DNA from: Bradyrhizobium sp. JYMT SZCCT0428
GTDB taxonomy: Bacteria > Pseudomonadota > Alphaproteobacteria > Rhizobiales > Xanthobacteraceae
Length of the DNA: 64,000 nt
Direction: 5' to 3'
Assembly: GCF_018131075.1 (NCBI RefSeq)
Contig: NZ_JAFCLS010000047.1
Location: forward strand, 1 to 64,000
A program made the translations under genes and the position numbers. Every line of letters begins with the position of its first letter. Position 1 is the first letter of the stretch. Positions 5,165 to 56,797 of this stretch are shown here, piece after piece. The notes under the pieces were generated by a model, which was not told where the DNA came from, made no database searches, and saw nothing but the letters and a program-made list of their open reading frames with translations.

Positions 5165-5683
5165 TCAACCGATTTGCTGGGGCGTGGCCGGCACCGCCAG
5201 GCGCGCCCGATAACTGCGCAACAGTGCAATCGTCCAGCCCAGGAAATAGCCGGCACAGGCGCCTGACACCGCCTGCCCGGCCGCGGCCACCTCCCAGATG
5301 GCGCCCAGTTTCATCGCGGTCACGACAGCGACAGCGTATTGCAACATGAAGACCGTGAGGTTGCGAACCAGAGGAACCACGCTGCCGGGGCGCAGGATGC
5401 GGCCGGTTGCGCCGTCGATCGTCACCGACCGCGGCCCGGTGTAGAGCGCCAGAGCGGCGAGCACGGCAGCGCTTGCCATCCAGACCAGCAGCAGGCTGAC
5501 CGATTTTCCGCTCAGCACCAGCCGGGAAACACCCATCAGAAAAAACACCGCAGGCACGATCAGCATCCGCGCCAGCGGCTGCGAGCGCGGCCGCAATGCC
5601 ATGCATCCCTGCCATATCAGCAGTGCCAGCAGGGCGAAGACCCATGGCGGCGTGTGGGTGAGGATGGCAATGGCGGTCTGCAT
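5165..5683 (-). CDS. Four-helix integral membrane protein, DUF6622-like
   Basis: A 172-residue hydrophobic protein with four or five predicted membrane helices and a basic loop RPRSQPLARM after the first helix. It resembles the small membrane family I know as DUF6622, which has no assigned function; this assignment is from memory. The ATG at 5683 follows GGGAGCCTG at proper spacing, whereas an upstream start at 5752 would run into the neighbouring gene's tail and add an unrelated polar leader. It lies 22 bp downstream of the winged-helix gene on the same strand and may be co-transcribed with it. Confidence 0.7.
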   Translation of the reverse strand: MQTAIAILTHTPPWVFALLALLIWQGCMALRPRSQPLARMLIVPAVFFLMGVSRLVLSGKSVSLLLVWMASAAVLAALALYTGPRSVTIDGATGRILRPGSVVPLVRNLTVFMLQYAVAVVTAMKLGAIWEVAAAGQAVSGACAGYFLGWTIALLRSYRARLAVPATPQQIG

Positions 5684-5705
5684 GTCAGGCTCCCTGGCCG
5701 CGAAT

Positions 5706-6008
5706 TCATTCAGGTGGTTGTGCCGCGATGATTTCCTGCAGCATCGCGACATGGCGGGCGAAGGCGCCGCGGCCGGCCGCGGTCGCGGTCACCGTGGTCT
5801 GCGGCTTCTTGCCGACAAAGGCCTTGTCGACCGCGACATAGCCGGCCTTCGACAGCGTCTCGATATGGGCGCCGAGATTGCCGTCGGTGGCGCCGGTGAG
5901 CTTTTTCAGCCTGGCGAATTCGAGCCCGGTACCCGGCGGCAGCGCGTTCAGCGCGGCCATGATTCGCAGGCGCAGCGGCTGGTGGATGATGTCGTCGAGT
6001 CCGGCCAT
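5706..6008 (-). CDS. Small winged-helix transcriptional regulator
   Basis: A 100-residue single-domain DNA-binding protein. The pattern HQPLRLRIMAAL, then TGATDGNLGAHIETL as recognition helix, then YVAVDKAFVGKKPQTTVTATAAGRGAF as wing and C-terminal helix, is that of the ArsR/MarR-like 'transcriptional regulator, winged helix' family that often sits beside small membrane proteins. No Cys metal site is visible. Its start lies 2 bp after the stop of the membrane protein encoded just upstream, so the two genes are almost certainly translated from one mRNA. It may act with or on that membrane protein. Confidence 0.83.
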   Translation of the reverse strand: MAGLDDIIHQPLRLRIMAALNALPPGTGLEFARLKKLTGATDGNLGAHIETLSKAGYVAVDKAFVGKKPQTTVTATAAGRGAFARHVAMLQEIIAAQPPE

Positions 6009-6010
6009 CG

Positions 6011-6559
6011 CTATTCCCGGCGCATCCAGAGACCGCCCAGCACGAGCCCGCCGCCGTTCACGATCGCCATCCATGGTTCGAACCAGTTGCCGGCCAGGAA
6101 ATAGCCGATCAACGTCAGCGCGGAGATGCCGACGCCGATGACGACAAAGGCGAAGCCGACCCACAATCCGGCGATGGTGTAGAACAGCATGAAATAGATC
6201 GCCCAGAACACGCCGAGCTCACGCGGCCCGAAATGGGCGAGCATGCAGGTCGCGAGCCCGAAGGCGAAGAACAGCAGGAACGCCATCAGCGTCCGCAGGT
6301 CGAAGGTGCGCACGCCGGTCCGCGAATGGGTGAAGGCGCTGACCACGAACGAGCCCGCGAGACCGACCACATTGATTGCGATCCAGATGTAGCCGGCATG
6401 GCGCGGCCAGCCGAACGAGGCGGCATTGGCGATGAAGACCAGCGCGCCCCACATGATCATGAGCAGGCTCGCCAGATTGTAGATCCGCGACTGGCGGACG
6501 CGGTGCGCGATCTCCCTGATATCCGCGAGCGCCTCGGAAGCTTGCCGGCTGTCGATCAT
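6011..6559 (-). CDS. Multi-helix membrane protein of unknown function
   Basis: A 182-residue protein starting with a polar helix (about residues 1-25), followed by five or six hydrophobic segments. Segments such as ASLLMIMWGALVFIANA, WIAINVVGLAGSFVV and FWAIYFMLFYTIAGLWVGF alternate with short loops. It is the first gene of a two- or three-gene unit with the winged-helix regulator and the DUF6622-like protein. A membrane protein paired with a small winged-helix regulator suggests signal reception or self-regulation, but I do not recognise the family. Confidence 0.75.
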   Translation of the reverse strand: MIDSRQASEALADIREIAHRVRQSRIYNLASLLMIMWGALVFIANAASFGWPRHAGYIWIAINVVGLAGSFVVSAFTHSRTGVRTFDLRTLMAFLLFFAFGLATCMLAHFGPRELGVFWAIYFMLFYTIAGLWVGFAFVVIGVGISALTLIGYFLAGNWFEPWMAIVNGGGLVLGGLWMRRE

Positions 6560-6581
6560 GTCGCCTTCCCCTCGATCGCGG

Positions 6582-7595
6582 TTACGACCCGGTTATGCCG
6601 CGCGTGGCCACGTCCTCGGCGATCGCAGATACCGCGCGGGGTACGCTGACGATGCCCATGTGATTGACGCCATCGATCAGCTTGACGTCAACCGCGGGGG
6701 CTATCGCATGCACAGAAGGTGCGTACTTGTCCGCGAACATCAGTTCGTCATCGGCGCCGGAGATGATCGTCATCGGCTTCCTGGCTGCCGCGAGATCGCG
6801 GCGGAAATCGCGGTCGCTGACCGCGAAATTGCGCATCAGGCGGTCGCTGTAGGTTCCGACCAGGTTCTTCTCGGAATTCGGCGGCACCGCGAACGCCAGC
6901 ACCGGCAGCGCGTCGCAGCAGGTGATACCGATGCTGCGCAGCGCGAACAGACCAACGATGCGCGGAACATCGGCCTTGGCCCAGCCGCCGGAATTGGGCC
7001 GGCCGGTCGGGGCGTCGTGACCGAGATAGGGCGCGAGCAGCACCGTACGCTCGAACAGGTCCTGGATCGACGAGCCCGCGACGCGCAGCGCAAAACCGCC
7101 GCCGGAGGAATGGCCAACCAGCGTCAGCGGCTTGGCGGGCGCGGTCTTGCGGATAATGCCGACCAAATCGGCGAGGTCATCCTCGAGCTGGCCGACATAG
7201 CCGATGTCGCCGCGGGTGCCAGACGTGCCGTGGCCGCGAATATCAACGGCCCAGGTTTCGACGCCGCGGGCCGCCAGCGCCGAGGACAGCGCGTGGATAG
7301 TTCCGCCGCTCGACCCGGAGGAGCCGTGCACCACGATGGCGGCGCGACCGGTCGCCGGGCCATGAGCGGCATAGTAGCGGAAACCGAGCGCGGTGCCGTC
7401 TCGTGCCTGAAACCGCTCGACCGCGGGCAAGGTGCTGAGATCTACCGTGCCGCGGGCAGCCGAGATCGATGGCAGCTCCGGGGGGTGCGTCAATGGCGTG
7501 GCGACCAGCCCCGTGATCAGCAAAGCGATCGCGCCAACGGCGCTGAGCGCCCATTTCAAGGTGCTGAAGCTGCCGCGTACCAACTGCCTGAACAT
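6582..7595 (-). CDS. Membrane-anchored alpha/beta hydrolase (lysophospholipase-like)
   Basis: A 337-residue alpha/beta-hydrolase with an uncleaved N-terminal membrane helix (about residues 14-35). The oxyanion-hole region is IVVHGSSGSSG and the nucleophile elbow is VGHSSGG (Ser near residue 176). The acid and His are probably in the ISGADDELM and GVNHMGIV motifs. This pattern matches monoacylglycerol-lipase/lysophospholipase-like enzymes. The ATG at 7595 is preceded by GAGGAAC. A perfect short palindrome at 7630-7646, 35 bp upstream of the start, may be an operator for this gene. The true substrate is unknown. Confidence 0.85.
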   Translation of the reverse strand: MFRQLVRGSFSTLKWALSAVGAIALLITGLVATPLTHPPELPSISAARGTVDLSTLPAVERFQARDGTALGFRYYAAHGPATGRAAIVVHGSSGSSGGTIHALSSALAARGVETWAVDIRGHGTSGTRGDIGYVGQLEDDLADLVGIIRKTAPAKPLTLVGHSSGGGFALRVAGSSIQDLFERTVLLAPYLGHDAPTGRPNSGGWAKADVPRIVGLFALRSIGITCCDALPVLAFAVPPNSEKNLVGTYSDRLMRNFAVSDRDFRRDLAAARKPMTIISGADDELMFADKYAPSVHAIAPAVDVKLIDGVNHMGIVSVPRAVSAIAEDVATRGITGS

Positions 7596-7732: not shown

Positions 7733-9355
7733 ATGCCCGCGACCGAACCCCTGCTCAACGCGCCCGAATACACCGTCTCGGAACTGTCCTCGTCGCTGAA
7801 GCGGACGGTGGAGGACGCCTATGGCCATGTCCGGGTCCGCGGCGAAATCTCGGGCTTTCGCGGGCCGCATTCCTCCGGGCACTGCTATTTCGCGCTCAAG
7901 GACGAGAGCGCCAAGATCGAGGCCGTGATCTGGAAGGGCGTGCATTCCCGAATGCGGTTCAAGCCGCAGGAGGGGCTCGAGATCATCGCGACCGGCAAGC
8001 TCACCACCTATCCGGGCTCGTCGAAATACCAGATCGTCATCGAAGCCATCGAGCCTGCCGGCATCGGCGCGCTGATGGCGCTGGTGGAAGAGCGCAAGAA
8101 GAAGCTCGGCGCCGAGGGCCTGTTCGACGAGGCGCGCAAGCAATTGCTGCCGTGGCTGCCGGAAGTGATCGGCATCGTGACGTCACCGACCGGCGCGGTG
8201 ATTCGCGACATCCTGCACCGCCTCGAAGACCGCTTTCCGCGCCGCGTGCTGGTGTGGCCGGTGAAGGTCCAGGGCGAAGGTTCGGCCGAGCAGGTTGCCG
8301 CCGCGATCCGCGGTTTCAATGCGCTGCCCGAGGGTGGCAAAATTCCGCGGCCGGATCTGCTGATCGTCGCGCGCGGCGGTGGCTCATTGGAGGACCTGTG
8401 GTCGTTCAACGAGGAGATCGTGGTTCGCGCCGCGGCCGAAAGCATGATCCCGCTGATCTCGGCGGTCGGCCACGAGACCGACATCACGCTGATCGATTTC
8501 GCCGCCGACAAGCGTGCGCCGACGCCGACAGCGGCCGCCGAAATGGCCGTCCCGGTGCGTAGCGAATTGCTGGTCGAGGTCGCCGGCCTCGCGCGCCGCA
8601 CGATGGTATGCTGGCTGCGCGGCCAGGAAAGCCGCCGCAATGAATTGCGCGCCGCGGCCCGCGCCCTGCCCGCGGCCAGCGAATTATTGGCGATCCCGCG
8701 GCAGCGGCTGGACAGCGCGGGTGCATCTCTGCCCCGCGGCTTGAAAGCCAACACCAACGCGCATCACCGCCGCTTCTCGCAGCTCAGCGCTGGCCTGACA
8801 TTGAAGGTGCTGCGCGGACAGGTCACTCACGCCAGGCAGCGCCTCATCGTCTCCGGCGAGCGCATCACGCTTTCCGCACGGGCATTGTTGCGCAGCCGGC
8901 GCGATCGCTTTGCCGGGCTTGAAGTCAGGCTGAAAGCCTCGAAACTTTCCAACGCGCAAGCGCAGCGCAACGCGATCGCGCGCGACCGCGAACGCACGCA
9001 ACGCCTTGCCGAGCGCGCGCGCCGCGCGCTCAAGACCGCATTGCAGCGGCTCGACGCCCGCATCAATCATGGCGGCCAATTGCTGTCGGCGCTGTCCTAT
9101 CGCGGCGTGCTCGCGCGCGGCTTTGCCCTGGTGCGCGACGAACACGGCCACGCCATGCATGCCGCCGCCTCGATCGGGCCGGGCGCGCCCCTGTCGATCG
9201 AGTTCGCCGACGGCCGCGTCGCGGCAACGGCGGATGCGGACCGGCCGGCGGCGACGTCGGCGCCGACGAGCCAGCCGACACTTGCCCGGCGGGAAACCAA
9301 GACACTTGCGCCCAGGCGCGTGGTCAAGCCGGTCGATCAGGGCAGTTTGTTTTAG
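7733..9355 (+). CDS. xseA: Exodeoxyribonuclease VII large subunit
   Basis: The large subunit of exonuclease VII, which degrades single-stranded DNA to oligonucleotides with the small subunit XseB (not in this window). The N-terminal OB-fold contains [11 protein letters not shown] and VRGEISGF. The catalytic core carries [29 protein letters not shown] and [18 protein letters not shown] long helical region follows, then a conserved ending [15 protein letters not shown] before a variable tail. I favour the ATG at 7733 (540 residues), which puts the OB-fold close to the N-terminus. Frames opening at 7667 (TTG) or 7676 (ATG) are alternatives. Confidence 0.96.
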
Positions 9356-9369
9356 GCGAGAATCTCTTC

Positions 9370-9457
9370 GTCATGCCCGGGCTTGACCCGGGCATCCATC
9401 AATCTTCGCAAAAAGCTTTTCCAAGGAGATGGATTGCCGGGTCAAGCCCGGCAATGA
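9370..9457. repeat. REP-like inverted repeat
   Basis: GTCATGCCCGGGCTTGACCC at the left pairs with GGGTCAAGCCCGGCAATGAC at the right, with GATGGAT/ATCCATC inner arms. It lies in the convergent gap between xseA and the leftward hydrolase pseudogene, and could act as a transcription end or mRNA 3' stabiliser for both. Confidence 0.75.
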
Positions 9458-35663: not shown

Positions 35664-35752
35664 GCGAAGGCGGAAGGCGTAATGCGCCCCTTTGTCTTCG
35701 GTTCGGACAGCGGATTACGCTGTCGCTAGTACGCTCTACGCGCTGTGGTTGG
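35664..35752. repeat. GGATTACGC palindromic repeat, left side of the kinase patch
   Basis: GCGAAGGCGGAAGGCGTAAT and CGGATTACGCTGTCGCTAGT are degenerate inverted partners. The block TCGGACAGCGGATTACGCTG recurs nearly unchanged at 38350, on the other side of the two accessory genes. Confidence 0.6.
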
Positions 35753-35851: not shown

Positions 35852-37318
35852 GTGACTATCGTAACACTCAATCAACAATGGACCATGGGCGCTCCGATTG
35901 GGGAAGGAGGTTTTGGTCAAGTTTTTGAGGCAACGAATGCGGCAGGCAAGCAGGCCGTAATCAAGCTGGTTCGTAAGGCGCCAGGCGCCGAGCGAGAAAT
36001 GCTGTTCGTGGACTTAGGCGGTGCACGTCGGGTTGTGCCAATCATTGATAGCGGTGAACACGGAGGCTTTTGGGCGCTTGTCATGCCTCGCGCCAAGGAA
36101 TCTTTGCGCGCTTATCTCGATCGCGCAGGCGGAGCGCTAAGCCCAACCGATGCGACGACAATCTTATGTGAAATCGCGATAGCACTTTCCGACCTAGATG
36201 GCCGAGTTGTTCATCGAGATTTAAAGCCGGAGAACGTTCTTTTGTTGGACGGTCAATGGTGCTTGGCTGACTTCGGCATCTCGCGATATGCCGCCGCCAC
36301 GACGTCACCTGATACCCAGAAGCACGCAATGACCGCTCCTTACGCTGCGCCGGAACGCTGGCGATCAGAAAGGGCCACAGGCGCCACTGACGTTTACTCG
36401 CTCGGAGTAATGGCCTTTGAGATGCTTACCGGCGCTCGCCCATTTCTCGGGCCCAACTTTGAGGACTATCGAGAACAGCATCTTCATTCTGACGTGCCAG
36501 CACTGAAGAGCGGGACTTCTGCGCTTCGTGCACTTGTCAGCGAGATGTTGTTCAAAGCTCCCGGCGCCCGACCCTTAGCGGCTAACCTGCTTGCTCGTCT
36601 TGAACGTTCGCAACAGCAGCGAACATCATGGGGACTAGCAAAATTAGGCGACTTTCATCTGCAAGAAGTTGTGCGACGAAGCGAGAGTGAACGAATGGCA
36701 TCCGAGAAGCGCAGCATGGCTGAACTGCGAAAGGACCTTTTCCGCGACGGTTCATCAATACTGAAAAGCGTGCAGGAGGAGTTGATTGACGCCGTTCTTG
36801 AGGCTGTACCCAGCGCAACGCAAGACAGGTCTGGCAAGCTTGACGGCGCAACAATTAGCCTCGGCGAAGCACAGTTAGAATTGGGGCCACTGTTCGAAAC
36901 GCCGGCGTCGCCATGGGAATGGGAGGCTCCAAAGTTTGATGTTATCGCACATTCGGGGATCATCGTACGCATTCCGCGAGACCGATACGACTATGGAGGC
37001 CGAAGCCACTCGTTGTGGTATTGCGACGCCCTTGAGGTCGGTCGGTTCGAGTGGGTCGAAATCGCATTTATGATGTCGCCTCTCTTGGGTAAGTCCACAG
37101 TTATGCGTCCGTTCATGGCAGACCCCGGTATGGTCTCGGCAAAAGCCTTGTGGAATGGCGTGTCCGAATATCAGCTGGCTTGGCCAATGGAGAGCCTGGA
37201 TTCGGAGAGCTTCATCGATAGGTGGACGAGTTGGCTTGGCGACGCTGCGCAGGGTAGGCTTCAGGCCCCCTCCACGATGCCTGAGCGGGAAACGCCGCGG
37301 AACTGGCGGCAAAAATAG
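35852..37318 (+). CDS. Orphan eukaryotic-type Ser/Thr protein kinase
   Basis: A 488-residue cytosolic protein. The kinase domain covers about residues 10-275: glycine loop GEGGFGQV (17-24), catalytic Lys38 in AVIKLV, catalytic loop HRDLKPEN (121-128), DFG (140-142), APE (166-168) and the helix F Asp in TDVYSLGV. All key residues are intact, so it should be active. A charged helical linker (about 280-325) leads to a C-terminal domain I do not recognise (SPWEWEAPKFDVIAHSG, YGGRSHSLWYCDALE). No transmembrane segment or PASTA repeat is present. The GTG start has GAGGCGGG upstream. Base composition is lower in GC than neighbours. Confidence 0.9.
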   Translation: MTIVTLNQQWTMGAPIGEGGFGQVFEATNAAGKQAVIKLVRKAPGAEREMLFVDLGGARRVVPIIDSGEHGGFWALVMPRAKESLRAYLDRAGGALSPTDATTILCEIAIALSDLDGRVVHRDLKPENVLLLDGQWCLADFGISRYAAATTSPDTQKHAMTAPYAAPERWRSERATGATDVYSLGVMAFEMLTGARPFLGPNFEDYREQHLHSDVPALKSGTSALRALVSEMLFKAPGARPLAANLLARLERSQQQRTSWGLAKLGDFHLQEVVRRSESERMASEKRSMAELRKDLFRDGSSILKSVQEELIDAVLEAVPSATQDRSGKLDGATISLGEAQLELGPLFETPASPWEWEAPKFDVIAHSGIIVRIPRDRYDYGGRSHSLWYCDALEVGRFEWVEIAFMMSPLLGKSTVMRPFMADPGMVSAKALWNGVSEYQLAWPMESLDSESFIDRWTSWLGDAAQGRLQAPSTMPERETPRNWRQK

Positions 37319-37319
37319 G

Positions 37320-37510
37320 GCCGTAGGACGGATTGAGCCGAAGGCGTAATTCGTCGCACAGGGGCGGTAACGCCCGAATATCGCCGCTCGCCGAATCAAT
37401 GCGCATTCCGTGGCGCGCTCCAATTTTTTGGGACGCTGTTTCACGCGCACGCCGCACCTGCTATCGATGCGGCACGGCGGATTACGCCTTCGGCTCAATC
37501 CGCCCCACGA
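37320..37510. repeat. GGATTGAGCCGAAGGCG inverted repeat pair
   Basis: GGATTGAGCCGAAGGCGTAA at 37330 and TTACGCCTTCGGCTCAATCC at 37482 are perfect inverted partners enclosing about 130 bp. It occupies the 263-bp gap between the kinase gene and the membrane-protein gene. Two elements in opposite orientation, or one large composite element, would explain it. Confidence 0.7.
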
Positions 37511-37581
37511 GCCTTAAATCGAGTGCATGGGGGTTTCCGCCACTAGCGCTAGAGGCGGTTTAGCGCGGCGGGAGGCTGTTG

Positions 37582-38259
37582 ATGCGCAGGCATAGAGGTC
37601 ACTCTGACGAGTTTCCATTCGTCATTGTCGTGGCGGTCTGGATTCTCGCTGAGATCGGAAAGGCGAGCTTCGGCGATCTTCTCAAGGCTTGGGCGACGAA
37701 GGAACTCGCTCGACTCGGCTACGGCAGCGCTGCGATGAGCCTAATCGCGCAACTTGCCGAGTATGTGCCTGCTATGGCCTTGGCAGGCTTGGTTCTGATT
37801 ATCCTATATCGTTACATTAGGCGCGACTTCCAGAAAAACTTTGGCCCTATCGATGAGCCGGAAGCTCCGCCCGCGCCGTCGGTGAGGATGGCCGAAGATA
37901 ACCCAACCATCAGCTATACAATCAAAGGCGACAACAATATTTTTATCAATGCCCCTCCGTCGCAACCGTTGAAGTTTCCGCGTGGCGTTGTTGCTAAGGA
38001 CGATCTGCCGACGCTTGTTCGCTTTCGGCCGGCCGGTATGGTGTTACTTGACAGCCACAACGTTTCGTCCGTTACCGACAATGGCACGGGCGACTATACT
38101 ATCAGTTTTGCTCGACCGCTTGATTGGCGATCAATGGCTTGCCACGCGTTGCCGCCAACGGCATCAAACTTCGAGGCGATCACCAGCAATGGTGAATCAA
38201 TACGAATTGTATTTGAGGGTGTAGAGCCGGAAATTGTAGCGTTTCGCTTCGACGATTAG
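37582..38259 (+). CDS. Membrane protein of unknown function with a soluble C-terminal domain
   Basis: A 225-residue protein with two predicted membrane helices (FPFVIVVAVWILAEIG near residues 11-26 and YVPAMALAGLVLIILY near 60-76). A Pro-rich linker (DEPEAPPAPSV) follows, then a soluble domain of about 125 residues beginning near TISYTIKGDNNIFIN. GGGAGG lies before ATG 37582. I do not recognise the domain. It is the second gene of the low-GC patch after the orphan kinase, and could be its substrate or partner, which is inference from position only. Confidence 0.7.
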   Translation: MRRHRGHSDEFPFVIVVAVWILAEIGKASFGDLLKAWATKELARLGYGSAAMSLIAQLAEYVPAMALAGLVLIILYRYIRRDFQKNFGPIDEPEAPPAPSVRMAEDNPTISYTIKGDNNIFINAPPSQPLKFPRGVVAKDDLPTLVRFRPAGMVLLDSHNVSSVTDNGTGDYTISFARPLDWRSMACHALPPTASNFEAITSNGESIRIVFEGVEPEIVAFRFDD

Positions 38260-38296: not shown

Positions 38297-38392
38297 CCGT
38301 AGGACGGATTAGATTTGCCGAAGACGTAATCCGCCATTTGTAGTTGGTTCGGACGGCGGATTACGCTGTCGCTAATCCGCTACGCGCATTCG
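38297..38392. repeat. GGATTACGC palindromic repeat, right side of the kinase patch
   Basis: Contains GACGTAATCCGCC and GGCGGATTACGCTGTCGCTAA as inverted partners. The second block matches that at 35709-35729, so the accessory pair is bracketed by related sequences. Confidence 0.65.
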
Positions 38393-52989: not shown

Positions 52990-53214
52990 CGTGGAGGACG
53001 TCTCCCTTGCCGACCGACGTGATCGGCCGGCCCTCCTCCTCCTCGACCCATCCCGTAGAAGGCGCTGCTTGTTGCTGGGGCCGTAGGTCGGAGCCTTTAT
53101 GCTCAAGTATTTATTCTTCAGCGTTTTGAAATGACAGTTTGCACCGGTCTGCGTTTGGACCGTGTGCATCGTGCAGGACAATTTGCAGTAGCTGGCTCAG
53201 CACGTATTATTACG

Positions 53215-53232
53215 AGCGCCCTGCGGGGCGCT
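53215..53232. other. GC-rich hairpin in non-coding accessory DNA
   Basis: AGCGCCC and GGGCGCT pair around TGCG and are followed by TGTTC, too weak a U-tract for a confident terminator. It lies in the 784-bp stretch 52990-53773, which otherwise shows no gene I would defend. Confidence 0.4.
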
Positions 53233-53573
53233 TGTTCACGTCCGGCCCAGGTTAGTAACTTATAGCAGTATGAGACCTAGACAACCTGTGCAATTAATTG
53301 CAGCGGAAGCGTTGGCCTAGTTCTGTACCGCGCGTCGATTCACGGATTGCACTTGAGGACCATCGGTGCAAACTCATTCCCAGAAATGGCAAAGATAGCC
53401 CGAATCGAGGGTCCGGGTCAGAGGAGTCGGAAGTTCTAATCCTTTGAGTCGGAGTGGTGCGGTACAACAATTAGCATGACTATTGCATTGCGTGCCCTGA
53501 ACAAGAGATGGCAGTGTGAAGTGGACGCAGATACTCAAGCCGGTGGAAAGTCAAAGAGAATCAACGCTCTTGA

Positions 53574-53597
53574 GGGGCGGAATGCAGGTTCCGCCCC
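53574..53597. other. Perfect 9-bp-stem hairpin
   Basis: GGGGCGGAA and TTCCGCCCC pair around TGCAGG, followed by TTG. It lies 177 bp upstream of the small gene at 53774 and may be a remnant terminator or a protein-binding site. Confidence 0.45.
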
Positions 53598-53773
53598 TTG
53601 TCGGAAGCCAGAGAAATGGCGACTTTAGGTGGTATAGTTCGGACTTGTTGAAACAGTACCAAGTGTTAACGCGTTTCAAGTTAAGCCTGTGGTTCAAGGC
53701 TTACTTTTAACGTCGATTTTAACCATCCGTGCTTAAGGTGGTTTGCAGCTAACCTTCTTATGAGGTCAGGAAA

Positions 53774-54049
53774 ATGGCGAAGGCAAAACTACCCGTGAGG
53801 GTAGACGATGTTGCTCGGCCTGAATCTGAGCCAACTCGTGAAAGAGAGCGTGATTCAGACTTGGTCGAGGTTATTAAGCGGGCCAAAGCGCTTAGAGAAA
53901 GCTATGGGCCGCTGTTGGGGGCTTGGTTGTTAGATCGTGCCGTGAGGGCCGCGACGGGTCGTCGATCCTTTCTGTGGAAGGGGTTGGCTTTGGTTGGGAC
54001 TGTGGTCGGGGGACTGGCGCTGAAGTACGGACTCCCACCGATTGGGTGA
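53774..54049 (+). CDS. Small protein with a C-terminal hydrophobic segment
   Basis: A 91-residue protein. The N-terminal half is highly charged (ESEPTRERERDSDLVEVIKR), and the C-terminal 25 residues are hydrophobic with GLALVGTVVGGLALKYGL, a probable tail anchor. AGGTCAGGAAA precedes the ATG. It ends 12 bp before the HEPN-like gene, and both appear to form one unit. I do not recognise the family. It could be an antitoxin-like or membrane-targeting partner, which is inference. Confidence 0.65.
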   Translation: MAKAKLPVRVDDVARPESEPTRERERDSDLVEVIKRAKALRESYGPLLGAWLLDRAVRAATGRRSFLWKGLALVGTVVGGLALKYGLPPIG

Positions 54050-54061
54050 GGTGATGAAGTC

Positions 54062-54499
54062 ATGGATAGTGAATTGGAAGCTGAAGTCTATAAGGCGATC
54101 GGGCGTTTTATTTTCTGGTTCTCGAAACTCGAAGGCTATTTGAAGGCTCACATAGTCGGGCTTCTCGATTTGGAGCGCGACATCTTCGACGCGGTCGTGA
54201 GCCCGTACGACTTTTCAACGATGTGTAAGGTTCTCGAAAAACTCATGCTCGCAAAGAAACTAGCCGAGCCAAACGCGCTCTCGAAGTATTTCAGCAAGTG
54301 CAGGAGCATAAATGACCAGCGCGTGAGAGTTGCACACGGTGATTGGACTCTTACGGGAGCACGCCATGTTGCACGGGGAAAACTTGAAGCGGAGATTTAC
54401 TTCGCAACCCCGGAAGATCTGAACAAGCACGCAGCGACTTGTCAGGAATTGATCCGAGAGTTCATTCGACTCGTTAACCGGAGCGACAAAGGCCCCTAA
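54062..54499 (+). CDS. HEPN-like small protein, possible RNase
   Basis: A 145-residue, mainly helical protein. Helix 1 reads AIGRFIFWFSKLEGYLKAHI and a later helix carries DQRVRVAHGDW, in which RVRVAH fits the R-x4-H core of HEPN ribonucleases. Many HEPN proteins are toxins or nucleic-acid-targeting effectors paired with a small partner gene. Here a 91-residue gene precedes it by 12 bp. The base composition is AT-richer than nearby core genes. The HEPN assignment is by motif and helix pattern only. Confidence 0.6.
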   Translation: MDSELEAEVYKAIGRFIFWFSKLEGYLKAHIVGLLDLERDIFDAVVSPYDFSTMCKVLEKLMLAKKLAEPNALSKYFSKCRSINDQRVRVAHGDWTLTGARHVARGKLEAEIYFATPEDLNKHAATCQELIREFIRLVNRSDKGP

Positions 54500-54648
54500 A
54501 TGAGGCTCTCATTTCATTCACACTTAATGGATCGAGCTGTCTTGGACGATGTGGGAGTCAGAGCTGAAAAGGCTCTTCGCGGGGTTGGCTTGTCCTCTGG
54601 AAGCCCATCTTCGCAACGCCCACAATGAGCGCGGGGGGACGGCGGAAA

Positions 54649-54708
54649 GCCGACGATATCGATCGGGAGGAAAAGAAGTGGAGCAAGCTCGGTCTGAAGG
54701 TGGAATAG
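54649..54708 (+). pseudogene. Decayed 3' end of a Bug receptor gene
   Basis: Twenty codons encode ADDIDREEKKWSKLGLKVE and a stop. This matches the last 24 codons of the intact Bug gene ending at 52989 except for a 12-bp loss between two AGCTCG repeats and several substitutions. No upstream part of a Bug gene remains. It marks the right side of the accessory segment 52990-54648. Confidence 0.8.
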
Positions 54709-54715
54709 CCCTATT

Positions 54716-54738
54716 CCGTTCCGATTGAATCGGAACGG
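54716..54738. repeat. CCGTTCCGAT palindrome
   Basis: CCGTTCCGAT and ATCGGAACGG are perfect inverted repeats around TGA, 8 bp after the Bug-tail remnant. It could have served as a transcription end for the lost gene. The rest of 54500-54905 holds nothing recognisable. Confidence 0.65.
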
Positions 54739-54905
54739 GACGCAAGATTCTCCACCTTCTAGCAGCGCCGCGGAGATCATCTTGTTGGTCGGCGAGCGCG
54801 GCGGTAACGGATGGTCCGCATTGCGGTGATGAAGGCGTTGACGCATGCCGACCCGGAGCCCGCGCTAGCTCCTAGGCGCAAACGAGAGAAACGCTACCCA
54901 ATTAT

Positions 54906-55745
54906 TCAAGGGTAAGGTGATTTCGCTGGCAACAGATCCAGCGCTTCCTTGATAAAAACAGCTGGGATGACGACTCCCAAGGAAAGATCCTTATCCTTAA
55001 AAATATTCGAACTCACTTGAGCTGTGATGAGGCCGGCCAAGAACTGGAGCGTCTCACCCAGCTGAACTTTGCCGCCATAAATTCGATTGCGATCTGCAAA
55101 ATACACAGGCCCGCCGCTGTTGCCCGGAAAGATTCGGAAATCGAACAGCCAGTTCTTACTGTCTTTCGAGGGCACTAACGGGTGGGACGCAATCTTACCG
55201 CTCCGAAGGATGGGGTAACCGTAGGGGCCTGTTGCGAAGAGTGGGTAGCCAAGACAAATCAGCTCGTCCCCAGGATGGATCTCATATTTTTTGAGGGTTT
55301 CATCGGTCACGAGCAATCCGATGGGTAACAACTTTGCGGTGAACTCGCTCGGCATTTGGGTGTACATCACTGCTACATCGACTGATGGATGCTTGATATA
55401 CAGCGGAGTGCCTTTCTCTCGAATTTTCTTTTCATAGTTCTGCTCGTTGATCGTGCCGTCCGCACTCTTCCAGCGGAACGAGATCGTCGCCACGTCACCG
55501 GAAATATCATCGAGAACATGCGCAGCCGTTACTAGGACGAACGAGGCCTTCTCGTTATCTATTGGCTTGCCGAGAATGAATACCGTCCCGCCCGATAATT
55601 CTCCGGCCTTTTTCGCGCTCGGCCCAAGTATCCGAAACGTGGCCTCCATCAATTCGGTGTTTATCTCAAAGCGTTCCGGTTCGGCATTCGCATCCGTCGA
55701 AGCTAAAGACATGATGAATAATACTACCTTGAAAAAATGGCGCAT
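54906..55745 (-). CDS. Secreted trypsin-like serine protease
   Basis: A 279-residue exported S1-fold protease. The start at 55745 opens into the signal peptide RHFFKVVLFIMSLASTDANA. The triad is His in VTAAHVLDD, Asp in PSVDVAVM and Ser in FPGNSGGPVYF. There is no PDZ domain, unlike DegP/HtrA. The frame opens earlier (55820), overlapping the MBL gene's end, but that part has no signal character. It is an orphan protease at the edge of the accessory patch, AT-richer than its right-hand neighbours. Substrate unknown. Confidence 0.85.
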   Translation of the reverse strand: MRHFFKVVLFIMSLASTDANAEPERFEINTELMEATFRILGPSAKKAGELSGGTVFILGKPIDNEKASFVLVTAAHVLDDISGDVATISFRWKSADGTINEQNYEKKIREKGTPLYIKHPSVDVAVMYTQMPSEFTAKLLPIGLLVTDETLKKYEIHPGDELICLGYPLFATGPYGYPILRSGKIASHPLVPSKDSKNWLFDFRIFPGNSGGPVYFADRNRIYGGKVQLGETLQFLAGLITAQVSSNIFKDKDLSLGVVIPAVFIKEALDLLPAKSPYP

Positions 55746-55801
55746 TGGTCGGTTCCGGTTTGCACGACGGCCGCCAGTCGAGTGCGTCGTTGAGATAGGT
55801 A

Positions 55802-56797
55802 TCAAATATTCGGATTCCACATCACCGGAATCTCCCGGTAGCCGCTGCCGACTTTCTCGACATGCGCCAGCGACGGGAACGGATAGTGGAACCCCTGCAC
55901 CCGCATCCTGTCGGCCGCCAGCATGTCGTAAACCTTGCGGCGGCTCGCTTCCGCCATCGCCGGGTCCTGATCGTAAAAGACGTGCCAGTCGGGATGCCGG
56001 ACGAACAGGAACGGGACGTGGGTGACATCGGATTGCACGTAGACGGACTCCGGGCCTGACGCGATCACGAACGAGCTATGGCCGGGCGAGTGCCCGGGCG
56101 TACCCTGCGCGGTGACGCCGGGAATCACTTCCTTGCCTCCCTCATAGGTTCTCACACGCTTCAGAGCCTCCGGTGTGAAGACCCGCCGCGCATTCTTGAA
56201 GACGCCCTCGATACGGCCTTTGGGAGCACGACTCATCTCGCCGTCGTCCATCCAATACTGGTGCTCCCTGGCCGGCACGAGGATCTCGGCGTTCGGATAG
56301 GTCAGTGAATTGTCGTCCATCAGGAGGCCGTTCATGTGGTCGCCGTGATAGTGCGAGATGATCACGACATCGACGGCGTTGCGGTCGATGCCCGCGGCCG
56401 CGAGGTTGGTCACGAACTGGCCGGCGGTGCCGTTGCTCTTCTTGTAATTGCTCTCGCCGGTGCCGGTATCGATGATCGCCAGCTTCGATCCGGTGTTGAT
56501 GGCGATCGGGTTGTACGGCGTGGTCATCATGTCCTTTTCCATGAAGACCTCGGCGAGCGCGGCGTTCACCACATCCTTCTTGATGTTGGTGACGTGATCC
56601 TCCGCCATCTTGAAGCGGTTGACGCCGTCGGTGGCCACCGTAACCTCGATGCTGCCGATCTTGTAGCGGTACCAGCCGGCGGTCTGCTTGCCCGCTGGCG
56701 GCGTCGCGGCGCGGGCGGGCTGACTGAACGGCAGGCTCGTGGCGGCTGCCGCGCCTGCGGCAGCCGACAACAGATCGCGGCGTGTGAAAGCGGTCAT
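55802..56797 (-). CDS. Tat-exported MBL-fold metallo-hydrolase
   Basis: A 331-residue periplasmic enzyme. The N-terminus TRRDLLSAAAGAAAATSLPF is a twin-arginine signal. The zinc motif is SHYHGDHMNG (HxHxDH), with the later His in QGTPGHSPGHSSFVI and an Asp in VQSDVTHVPFLF. The fold is that of lactonase- or quorum-quenching-like MBL hydrolases, but the substrate is not assignable. GGGGAGACGCCT precedes the ATG. Confidence 0.9.
   Translation of the reverse strand: MTAFTRRDLLSAAAGAAAATSLPFSQPARAATPPAGKQTAGWYRYKIGSIEVTVATDGVNRFKMAEDHVTNIKKDVVNAALAEVFMEKDMMTTPYNPIAINTGSKLAIIDTGTGESNYKKSNGTAGQFVTNLAAAGIDRNAVDVVIISHYHGDHMNGLLMDDNSLTYPNAEILVPAREHQYWMDDGEMSRAPKGRIEGVFKNARRVFTPEALKRVRTYEGGKEVIPGVTAQGTPGHSPGHSSFVIASGPESVYVQSDVTHVPFLFVRHPDWHVFYDQDPAMAEASRRKVYDMLAADRMRVQGFHYPFPSLAHVEKVGSGYREIPVMWNPNI

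Follow-up and report, generated by a model that had tools for sequence, protein, structure and literature searches.

A 64,000-nucleotide stretch of Bradyrhizobium sp. JYMT SZCCT0428 (contig NZ_JAFCLS010000047.1, positions 1 to 64,000; hereafter the window) encodes, at 35852–37318, an intact Hanks-type Ser/Thr kinase of 488 amino acids, the C-terminal half of which is a conserved domain not described by the family libraries searched. Our favored reading, at a little short of even chances, is that this protein is a soluble, stand-alone and mobile kinase acting against phages or other mobile elements, with the C-terminal domain serving as a sensor or a substrate dock. All window features given below lie on the plus strand.

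The gene starts with a GTG codon at 35852, the same start position as in its relatives, and matches the Pfam family PF00069 over residues 13–248 (E 1.5e-33; 116.8 bits vs. a cut-off of 31.7). Its PknB-like kinase domain (residues 9–255; 35876–36616) aligns with Mycobacterium tuberculosis PknB at Z 27.5 and a root-mean-square deviation of 2.3 over 241 residues in VIA-align. Among 46 aligned rows, composed of the window kinase and 45 loci with an open reading frame (ORF) of 471–559 amino acids, the motif residues from the catalytic loop VHRDLKPEN (residues 120–128) to DFG (140–142; 36209–36277) are invariant; K38, H121, R122, D123, K125, P126, N128, D140, F141, G142, P167, and E168 are identical in all 46, and A166 of the APE motif is Ala in 40. 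Two activation-loop residues, Thr151 and Thr155 (36302–36316), are Thr in 45 and 46 rows, respectively, and are presumed autophosphorylation sites by analogy with known Hanks-type kinases. Because these catalytic and activation-loop residues are kept, the enzyme is predicted to be active; a preliminary description of this DNA, made from the sequence alone, had already noted an intact kinase with every catalytic residue, and the invariance of those residues across 46 family members bears this out. The same description had found neither PASTA repeats nor a membrane segment, in agreement with the absence of a PASTA domain at E 1 in Pfam, a score of only 115.7 of the 450 bits needed for NCBIfam PknB_PASTA_kin, and a hydropathy scan giving no transmembrane-like segment; a Pfam match to FHA or CSD was likewise not found. 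Four further places in the same genome match the kinase query weakly and are taken as other kinases.

The approximately 160 C-terminal residues that the preliminary description could not place remain outside the family libraries, and form a conserved globular domain. The part beyond the kinase fold, about 230 residues long, has no Pfam match over the cut-off and no match among Protein Data Bank (PDB) sequences, and gave no PADLOC match at E 1 in nine of nine members scanned. In AlphaFold2 models, a single long helix of about 60 residues (residues 260–318; 36629–36805) connects the kinase to an uncharacterized globular fold (residues 319–488; 36806–37315) of several strands and a closing helix. 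Structure prediction, which had been proposed earlier for this part of the protein, gave a confident model for residues 256–488 from a 50-row alignment in which the globular domain is conserved (predicted local distance difference test score, pLDDT, 94.5; predicted template modeling score, pTM, 0.86); the full-length model reached a pLDDT of 88.9, its activation loop being modeled with low confidence. A Foldseek comparison of the C-terminal model with PDB chains and viral models returned nothing at E 0.001 or better. The best VIA-align scores were those of frataxin CyaY (Z 7.3, root-mean-square deviation 3.3, 100 aligned residues) and CapZ (Z 6.7), with none at 8 or above; values of 6.7–7.3 are common without kinship and lie below a telling level, and a family outside those listed is possible.

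Relatives were collected from bacterial and archaeal genomes with a nine-member C-terminal alignment and one peptide pattern, by which 55 of 69 candidates were confirmed; an earlier scan of genome contigs with the whole kinase as the query had confirmed none among 14 stretches. The 55 loci carrying the domain, from Actinomycetota, Pseudomonadota, Chloroflexota, a Dormibacterota bin, and a bin titled Deltaproteobacteria, are a floor, since this second scan relied on the C-terminal alignment with a single peptide pattern. At 46 of the 55, an ORF of 471–559 amino acids has the kinase at its start and the C-terminal domain reaching its end. The 50-row alignment comprises the window and 49 loci, leaving aside L083 (no ORF), L068, L078, and L084 (ORFs that miss the match), L050 (near-identical to L049), and L080. 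Of the 41 invariant columns in the 46-row alignment, 29 belong to the kinase and 12 to the C-terminal region (G383, R384, H386, S387, L388, W389, W401, E403, P420, A443, W458, and P473). The first six of these sit in the search pattern, so that the agreement of later rows in GR[SAN]HSLW[YF][CAG] arises by construction; evidence for them comes only from the nine members found independently of the pattern, in which these six residues, as well as the signature GRxHSLWxxD (residues 383–392; 36998–37027), are also invariant. In 38 carrier genomes there is one full-length domain match each, within an open frame of 483–745 amino acids in 37 and of 248 amino acids in one; a stop codon falls inside two of the matches, and an extra, broken fragment is present in one of the genomes. 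As the conserved domain stays fused to the kinase in intact members, it argues for a sensing or docking role.

The distribution of the kinase is sparse. Within the genus, 4 of 265 genomes match the domain (three in full, one by a 40-residue fragment), and within the family, 6 of 296, comprising, besides the window, two full-length and three partial or weak matches. A query of about residues 263–488 found ten plasmid records, from Streptomyces, Rhodococcus, and Variovorax (identity 27–42%), eight of which cover at least 80% of it, whereas the domain was absent from two phage collections (phage records and viral contigs). In a tree of the relatives, the row closest to the window kinase is from Tardiphaga rather than the Bradyrhizobium copy (support 100/96). 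At the level of DNA, pairwise matches were considered above 600 bases and 72% identity, weaker or shorter flank matches falling outside the listing; by this measure, the match at the kinase covers the gene and little else in the pairs L046/L060 (89% identity over 1,556 bp), L046/L061, L046/L047, L051/L054, and L076/L079. That identity stops near the gene ends shows that the kinase gene moves alone, and it does so within phyla. Two actinobacterial loci listed under separate families, Propionibacteriaceae (L058, 6349–9047) and Intrasporangiaceae (L064, 6343–9035), share 2.7 kb of their 16.6 kb at 87% identity, kinase included, between unlike flanks. In genome G350, the kinase lies 2.6 kb from a tRNA-Ser gene with an ORF in between that, judged by its sequence, is tyrosine integrase-like; the search for an attachment-site repeat for this element yielded no more than 14 bases matching the end of the tRNA, 67 kb away, which were rejected as too short. 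Five Streptomyces copies lie within about 13 kb of a linear-plasmid end, near a helicase gene.

The genes beside the relatives were compared with a control. The neighbor set consisted of 142 genes, up to three nearest of 120–899 amino acids per locus, at 50 of the 55 loci (L068, L070, L078, L080, and L083 being omitted and both L049 and L050 retained), and the control set of 142 random genes within those size limits, taken from 20 random 16.6 kb stretches of 20 of the same genomes, more than 60 kb from the kinase on the same contig. In Pfam, the near neighbors included Phage_integrase (4), Resolvase, N6_Mtase, HsdM_N, TIR_2, Mrr_cat, and DUF4238 (2 each), and the controls were headed by MFS_1 (5), ABC_tran (3), and Epimerase (3); the tallies cover the first 25 families listed, and the contrast carries no statistical test. 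This Pfam contrast, suggestive of an integrase- and restriction-rich setting as opposed to transport and metabolism, is given more weight than PADLOC, which at 1e-10 found 205 families for neighbors vs. 106 for controls, because its control also held Gabija, BREX, and CRISPR genes. A gene with the type I restriction domain HSDR_N_2 is found about 4 kb from the kinase in G350, and in the copy of Bradyrhizobium sp. CSS354 a similar gene (E 5.1e-7) precedes the kinase at a distance of 76 bp. Clustering of neighbor proteins over the 55 loci gave a largest family, in seven loci, of protein kinases, some being pieces of one broken gene, followed by clusters of three to four loci each that were named by eye as integrase-, type I restriction component-, and resolvase-like, among others; there is no conserved partner gene. 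Some neighbor genes are wrong because of the home-made ORF caller, as at L031, where an antisense ORF (8578–9393) replaced the sense one. At the Tardiphaga locus L025, the caller likewise picked an antisense ORF without a Pfam match, opposite a same-strand ORF directly downstream of the kinase (5369–6724, minus strand) that is DUF4238-like by eye. The phosphatase family PP2C_2 (PF13672), the sole one searched, was not found within 84 kb on the kinase contig in any of the 38 genomes, some contigs being short; the lack of a partner phosphatase noted earlier holds for PF13672 on the window contig.

At the window locus itself, the three 1-kb steps between 35 and 38 kb have a guanine plus cytosine (GC) content of 0.570, 0.555, and 0.575, against 0.601–0.666 in the steps at 28–35 and 38–44 kb, so that the difference in composition from the neighbors described before is real. 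The kinase's upstream neighbor is a GMC oxidoreductase (PF00732/PF05199), which has matches of varying strength, many of them weak, in 142 of 146 genus genomes. In G409, the closest genome at the GMC gene (97%), the 14 kb around that gene contain no match to the kinase or to the membrane-protein gene that follows it in the window; this stretch also shows a TctC fragment between oxidoreductase genes, in rearranged order (L219, 3048–5821). In G413, other cargo stands ahead of the TctC gene (91%), namely an ORF resembling an MFS transporter and a gene resembling a Clp protease (PF00574, E 9.2e-11), with copies of the palindromic repeat treated below in between. We infer from a site so variable among relatives that the kinase arrived there recently. 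The preliminary description had taken the composition and the palindromes on both sides as consistent with an acquired cassette: acquisition of the kinase at a variable locus stands, but not the palindromes as borders or the two-gene unit. The palindromes are present on both sides, GGATTACGC occurring three times in the window (0.50 expected; three reached in 1 of 100 shuffles), upstream of the kinase (35712–35720), downstream of the membrane-protein gene (38358–38366), and also between the two genes (37479–37487), an arrangement that does not bracket both as one unit. They are dispersed genomic repeats outside the module; the 12-mer GGCGGATTACGC has 32 exact copies in the 9.24 Mb genome vs. 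none for the pattern read backwards, and they were rejected as cassette borders on this ground. Eight of the 32 copies lie within 9 kb on contig C159 of the same genome (105647–114584), where several form inverted pairs at close spacing. These repeats also surround, in a sister species, the MFS-like and Clp-protease-like genes ahead of the TctC gene (L220, 1500–5138); from this occurrence around different genes, places rich in the repeat may be where genes are exchanged.

The absence of a membrane segment, of a conserved partner, and of a nearby PP2C phosphatase argues that the kinase is a self-contained cytosolic switch. We infer its activity, trigger, targets, and defense outcome, probably along the following lines: the C-terminal domain would recognize an infection cue or dock a substrate, the kinase would then autophosphorylate at Thr151/Thr155 and phosphorylate host proteins, and growth would stop, so that the invading phage or mobile element could not spread. 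Growth arrest on infection is proposed by analogy with KKP, in which kinase toxicity stops infected cells (PMC11341870); the same source and PMC9519451 offer precedent for kinases as anti-phage effectors. In favor of the defensive reading are the invariant catalytic residues and PknB-like fold, the patchy, single-gene occurrence with one full-length match per carrier genome, the near confinement of DNA identity to the gene, the ten plasmid records, the G350 copy near a tRNA gene and an integrase-like ORF, and the integrase- and restriction-rich setting of relatives, and a defense or signaling effector, as suggested before, is a reasonable reading of an intact, soluble, and acquired kinase.

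Several observations weigh against a defensive role. The window kinase is flanked by metabolic and transport genes, with no evident defense island in Pfam. The C-terminal domain is unmatched in the phage collections, though many defense genes ride prophages. The tree mostly follows phyla, with Pseudomonadota together and Chloroflexota together, from which transfer between phyla looks rare. The PADLOC tallies do not part relatives from controls cleanly. The Pfam control also holds AAA_21 (AbiEii-type) in two members plus methyltransferases, and the PADLOC control holds one gene each of Gabija, BREX, and type I-E CRISPR, mad3 in four members, and mad2 in three, while three kinase neighbors swell the PADLOC list of the relatives. 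Among the 25 of 33 PADLOC families listed for the kinase, the best matches fall in the kinase domain and only a few weaker ones reach residue 323; PADLOC labels were accordingly dropped as family evidence. PADLOC kinase matches also discriminate little, seeing that a gene called PD-T4-6 by PADLOC occurs in all of the analyzed Streptococcus thermophilus genomes (PMC11514479).

The kinase is worth comparing with known systems. It shares the catalytic fold and motifs of the PknB/Stk1-type Hanks kinases, but differs from them in being without a transmembrane or PASTA segment, in its other C-terminal domain, and in its sparse and mobile occurrence. Like PD-T4-6 and Stk2, to whose PADLOC models it matches at E 1.6e-40 and 1.8e-11, it is a single-gene eukaryotic-like kinase; in a comparison made through PADLOC models, the C-terminal domain of its family matches none of them at E 1 in the nine members scanned. 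Stk2 was reportedly described by Depardieu in 2016 as a kinase-based phage defense. The top PADLOC match is mad6 of MADS (E 2e-43, residues 4–262), whereas the score against NCBIfam antiphage_MADS6 is 107.7 bits for a cut-off of 460, and the window neighbors, as far as named by Pfam, are oxidoreductases and transport proteins. The kinase–kinase–phosphatase module KKP resembles the present case in that a Ser/Thr kinase carried by mobile DNA is extended by a further C-terminal domain, but it comprises a phosphatase and two kinases, the latter bearing CSD and FHA domains (PMC11341870), in contrast to the one kinase here. CapK is a GHKL kinase (PMC13373217) and of a different kind. Among the literature matches listed, no title or abstract opening in the open-licence literature describes the kinase family.

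Of the other explanations, the one that survives best, though we hold it unlikely, is that the protein is a signaling kinase carried as cargo: acquired on mobile DNA, it would serve stress or metabolic regulation, with a small molecule or host regulator as the ligand of its C-terminal domain. Most Hanks-type kinases are regulators, the window copy lies beside metabolic and transport genes, and the alphaproteobacterial rows form one branch of the tree, all of which would fit; the sparse, mostly single-copy and stand-alone presence, with no neighbor family in more than 7 of the 55 loci, and the restriction- and integrase-rich surroundings at other loci fit it less well. It is improbable that the kinase serves the mobile element instead of the host, for instance by maintaining a plasmid or linear replicon, controlling transfer, or excluding competing elements; the ten plasmid records, the five Streptomyces copies near linear-plasmid ends and a helicase gene, and the copy near a tRNA–integrase junction would fit, but other copies, the window's included, have no element genes seen beside them, and the gene moves without surrounding element genes.

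Quite improbable, too, is a reading of the C-terminal domain as a degenerate E2 (ubiquitin-conjugating-like) fold recruiting a ubiquitin-like or E2-linked immune partner. An hhalign comparison with 12 Prok-E2_A sequences gave a probability of 51.6 and a score of 34.9, with the similarity at the closing helix of the Prok-E2_A domains, and this score was reached by none of 200 column shuffles (maximum 23.8) and none of 200 block shuffles; four of the 50 members also show a weak Prok-E2_A match in Pfam (E 0.006 at best), and a Cap2 chain scored Z 3.4. Ten-column block shuffles, however, climb to 34.5, indicating that one helix motif carries the hhalign score, frataxin CyaY scores higher (Z 7.3), the window protein has 12.7 of the 25 bits of the Pfam cut-off, and no Cys is invariant in the 46 rows and hence no catalytic Cys is conserved. 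The resemblance is a lead, not a membership.

Returning to the defensive reading, a bolder and more tentative form of it is that the kinase represents an undescribed single-gene immune family of Actinomycetota, Pseudomonadota, Chloroflexota, and a few others, in which the GRxHSLWxxD fold would sense phage or mobile DNA directly and switch on a toxic kinase, with no antitoxin phosphatase. Apart from its function, a kinase family crossing phyla is now defined, with a C-terminal domain that is confidently modeled yet unannotated and a single gene of about 1.5 kb compact enough for direct testing. If defensive, it would constitute an immune module consisting of a kinase alone, with a built-in sensor but lacking an antidote, and would make it easier to tell true defense kinases from generic kinases caught by current defense models.

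The next gene (37582–38259) encodes a two-transmembrane protein of 225 amino acids, judged to lie outside the kinase module; its ORF was listed as 37579–38259 from TTG, with a possible ATG start one codon on, at 37582. The two helices seen before correspond to transmembrane-like segments at residues 13–31 and 58–76 in the hydropathy scan, whereas the soluble domain thought unfamiliar is a phage tail-fiber-type module (38017–38250): about residues 147–224 match the tail fiber protein phrog_11355 (E 2.2e-6), and a relative of the module is encoded in 438 of 600 examined viral-contig stretches. In 80 viral loci kept from these, none of the 107 ORFs bearing the motif has a transmembrane-like segment, which makes the combination unusual. 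That the kinase and this protein form a two-gene system, as the preliminary description had paired them, is very improbable: the genes are on the same strand about 260 bp apart and both low in GC, but a repeat sits between them, and no membrane-protein relative was found at 73 fetched loci, almost every one a kinase-relative locus (tblastn, E 0.1 or better; best chance match E 0.11 over 23 residues, with the window control recovered), in the four genomes with a kinase-domain match (partial in two), among plasmids, or, at full length, in the 296 family genomes besides the window's own. Elsewhere in the window, a second low-GC block (53001–56000; 0.525–0.537) contains a trypsin-like peptidase gene (54906–55820; PF13365) and an unknown ORF of 145 amino acids (54062–54499).

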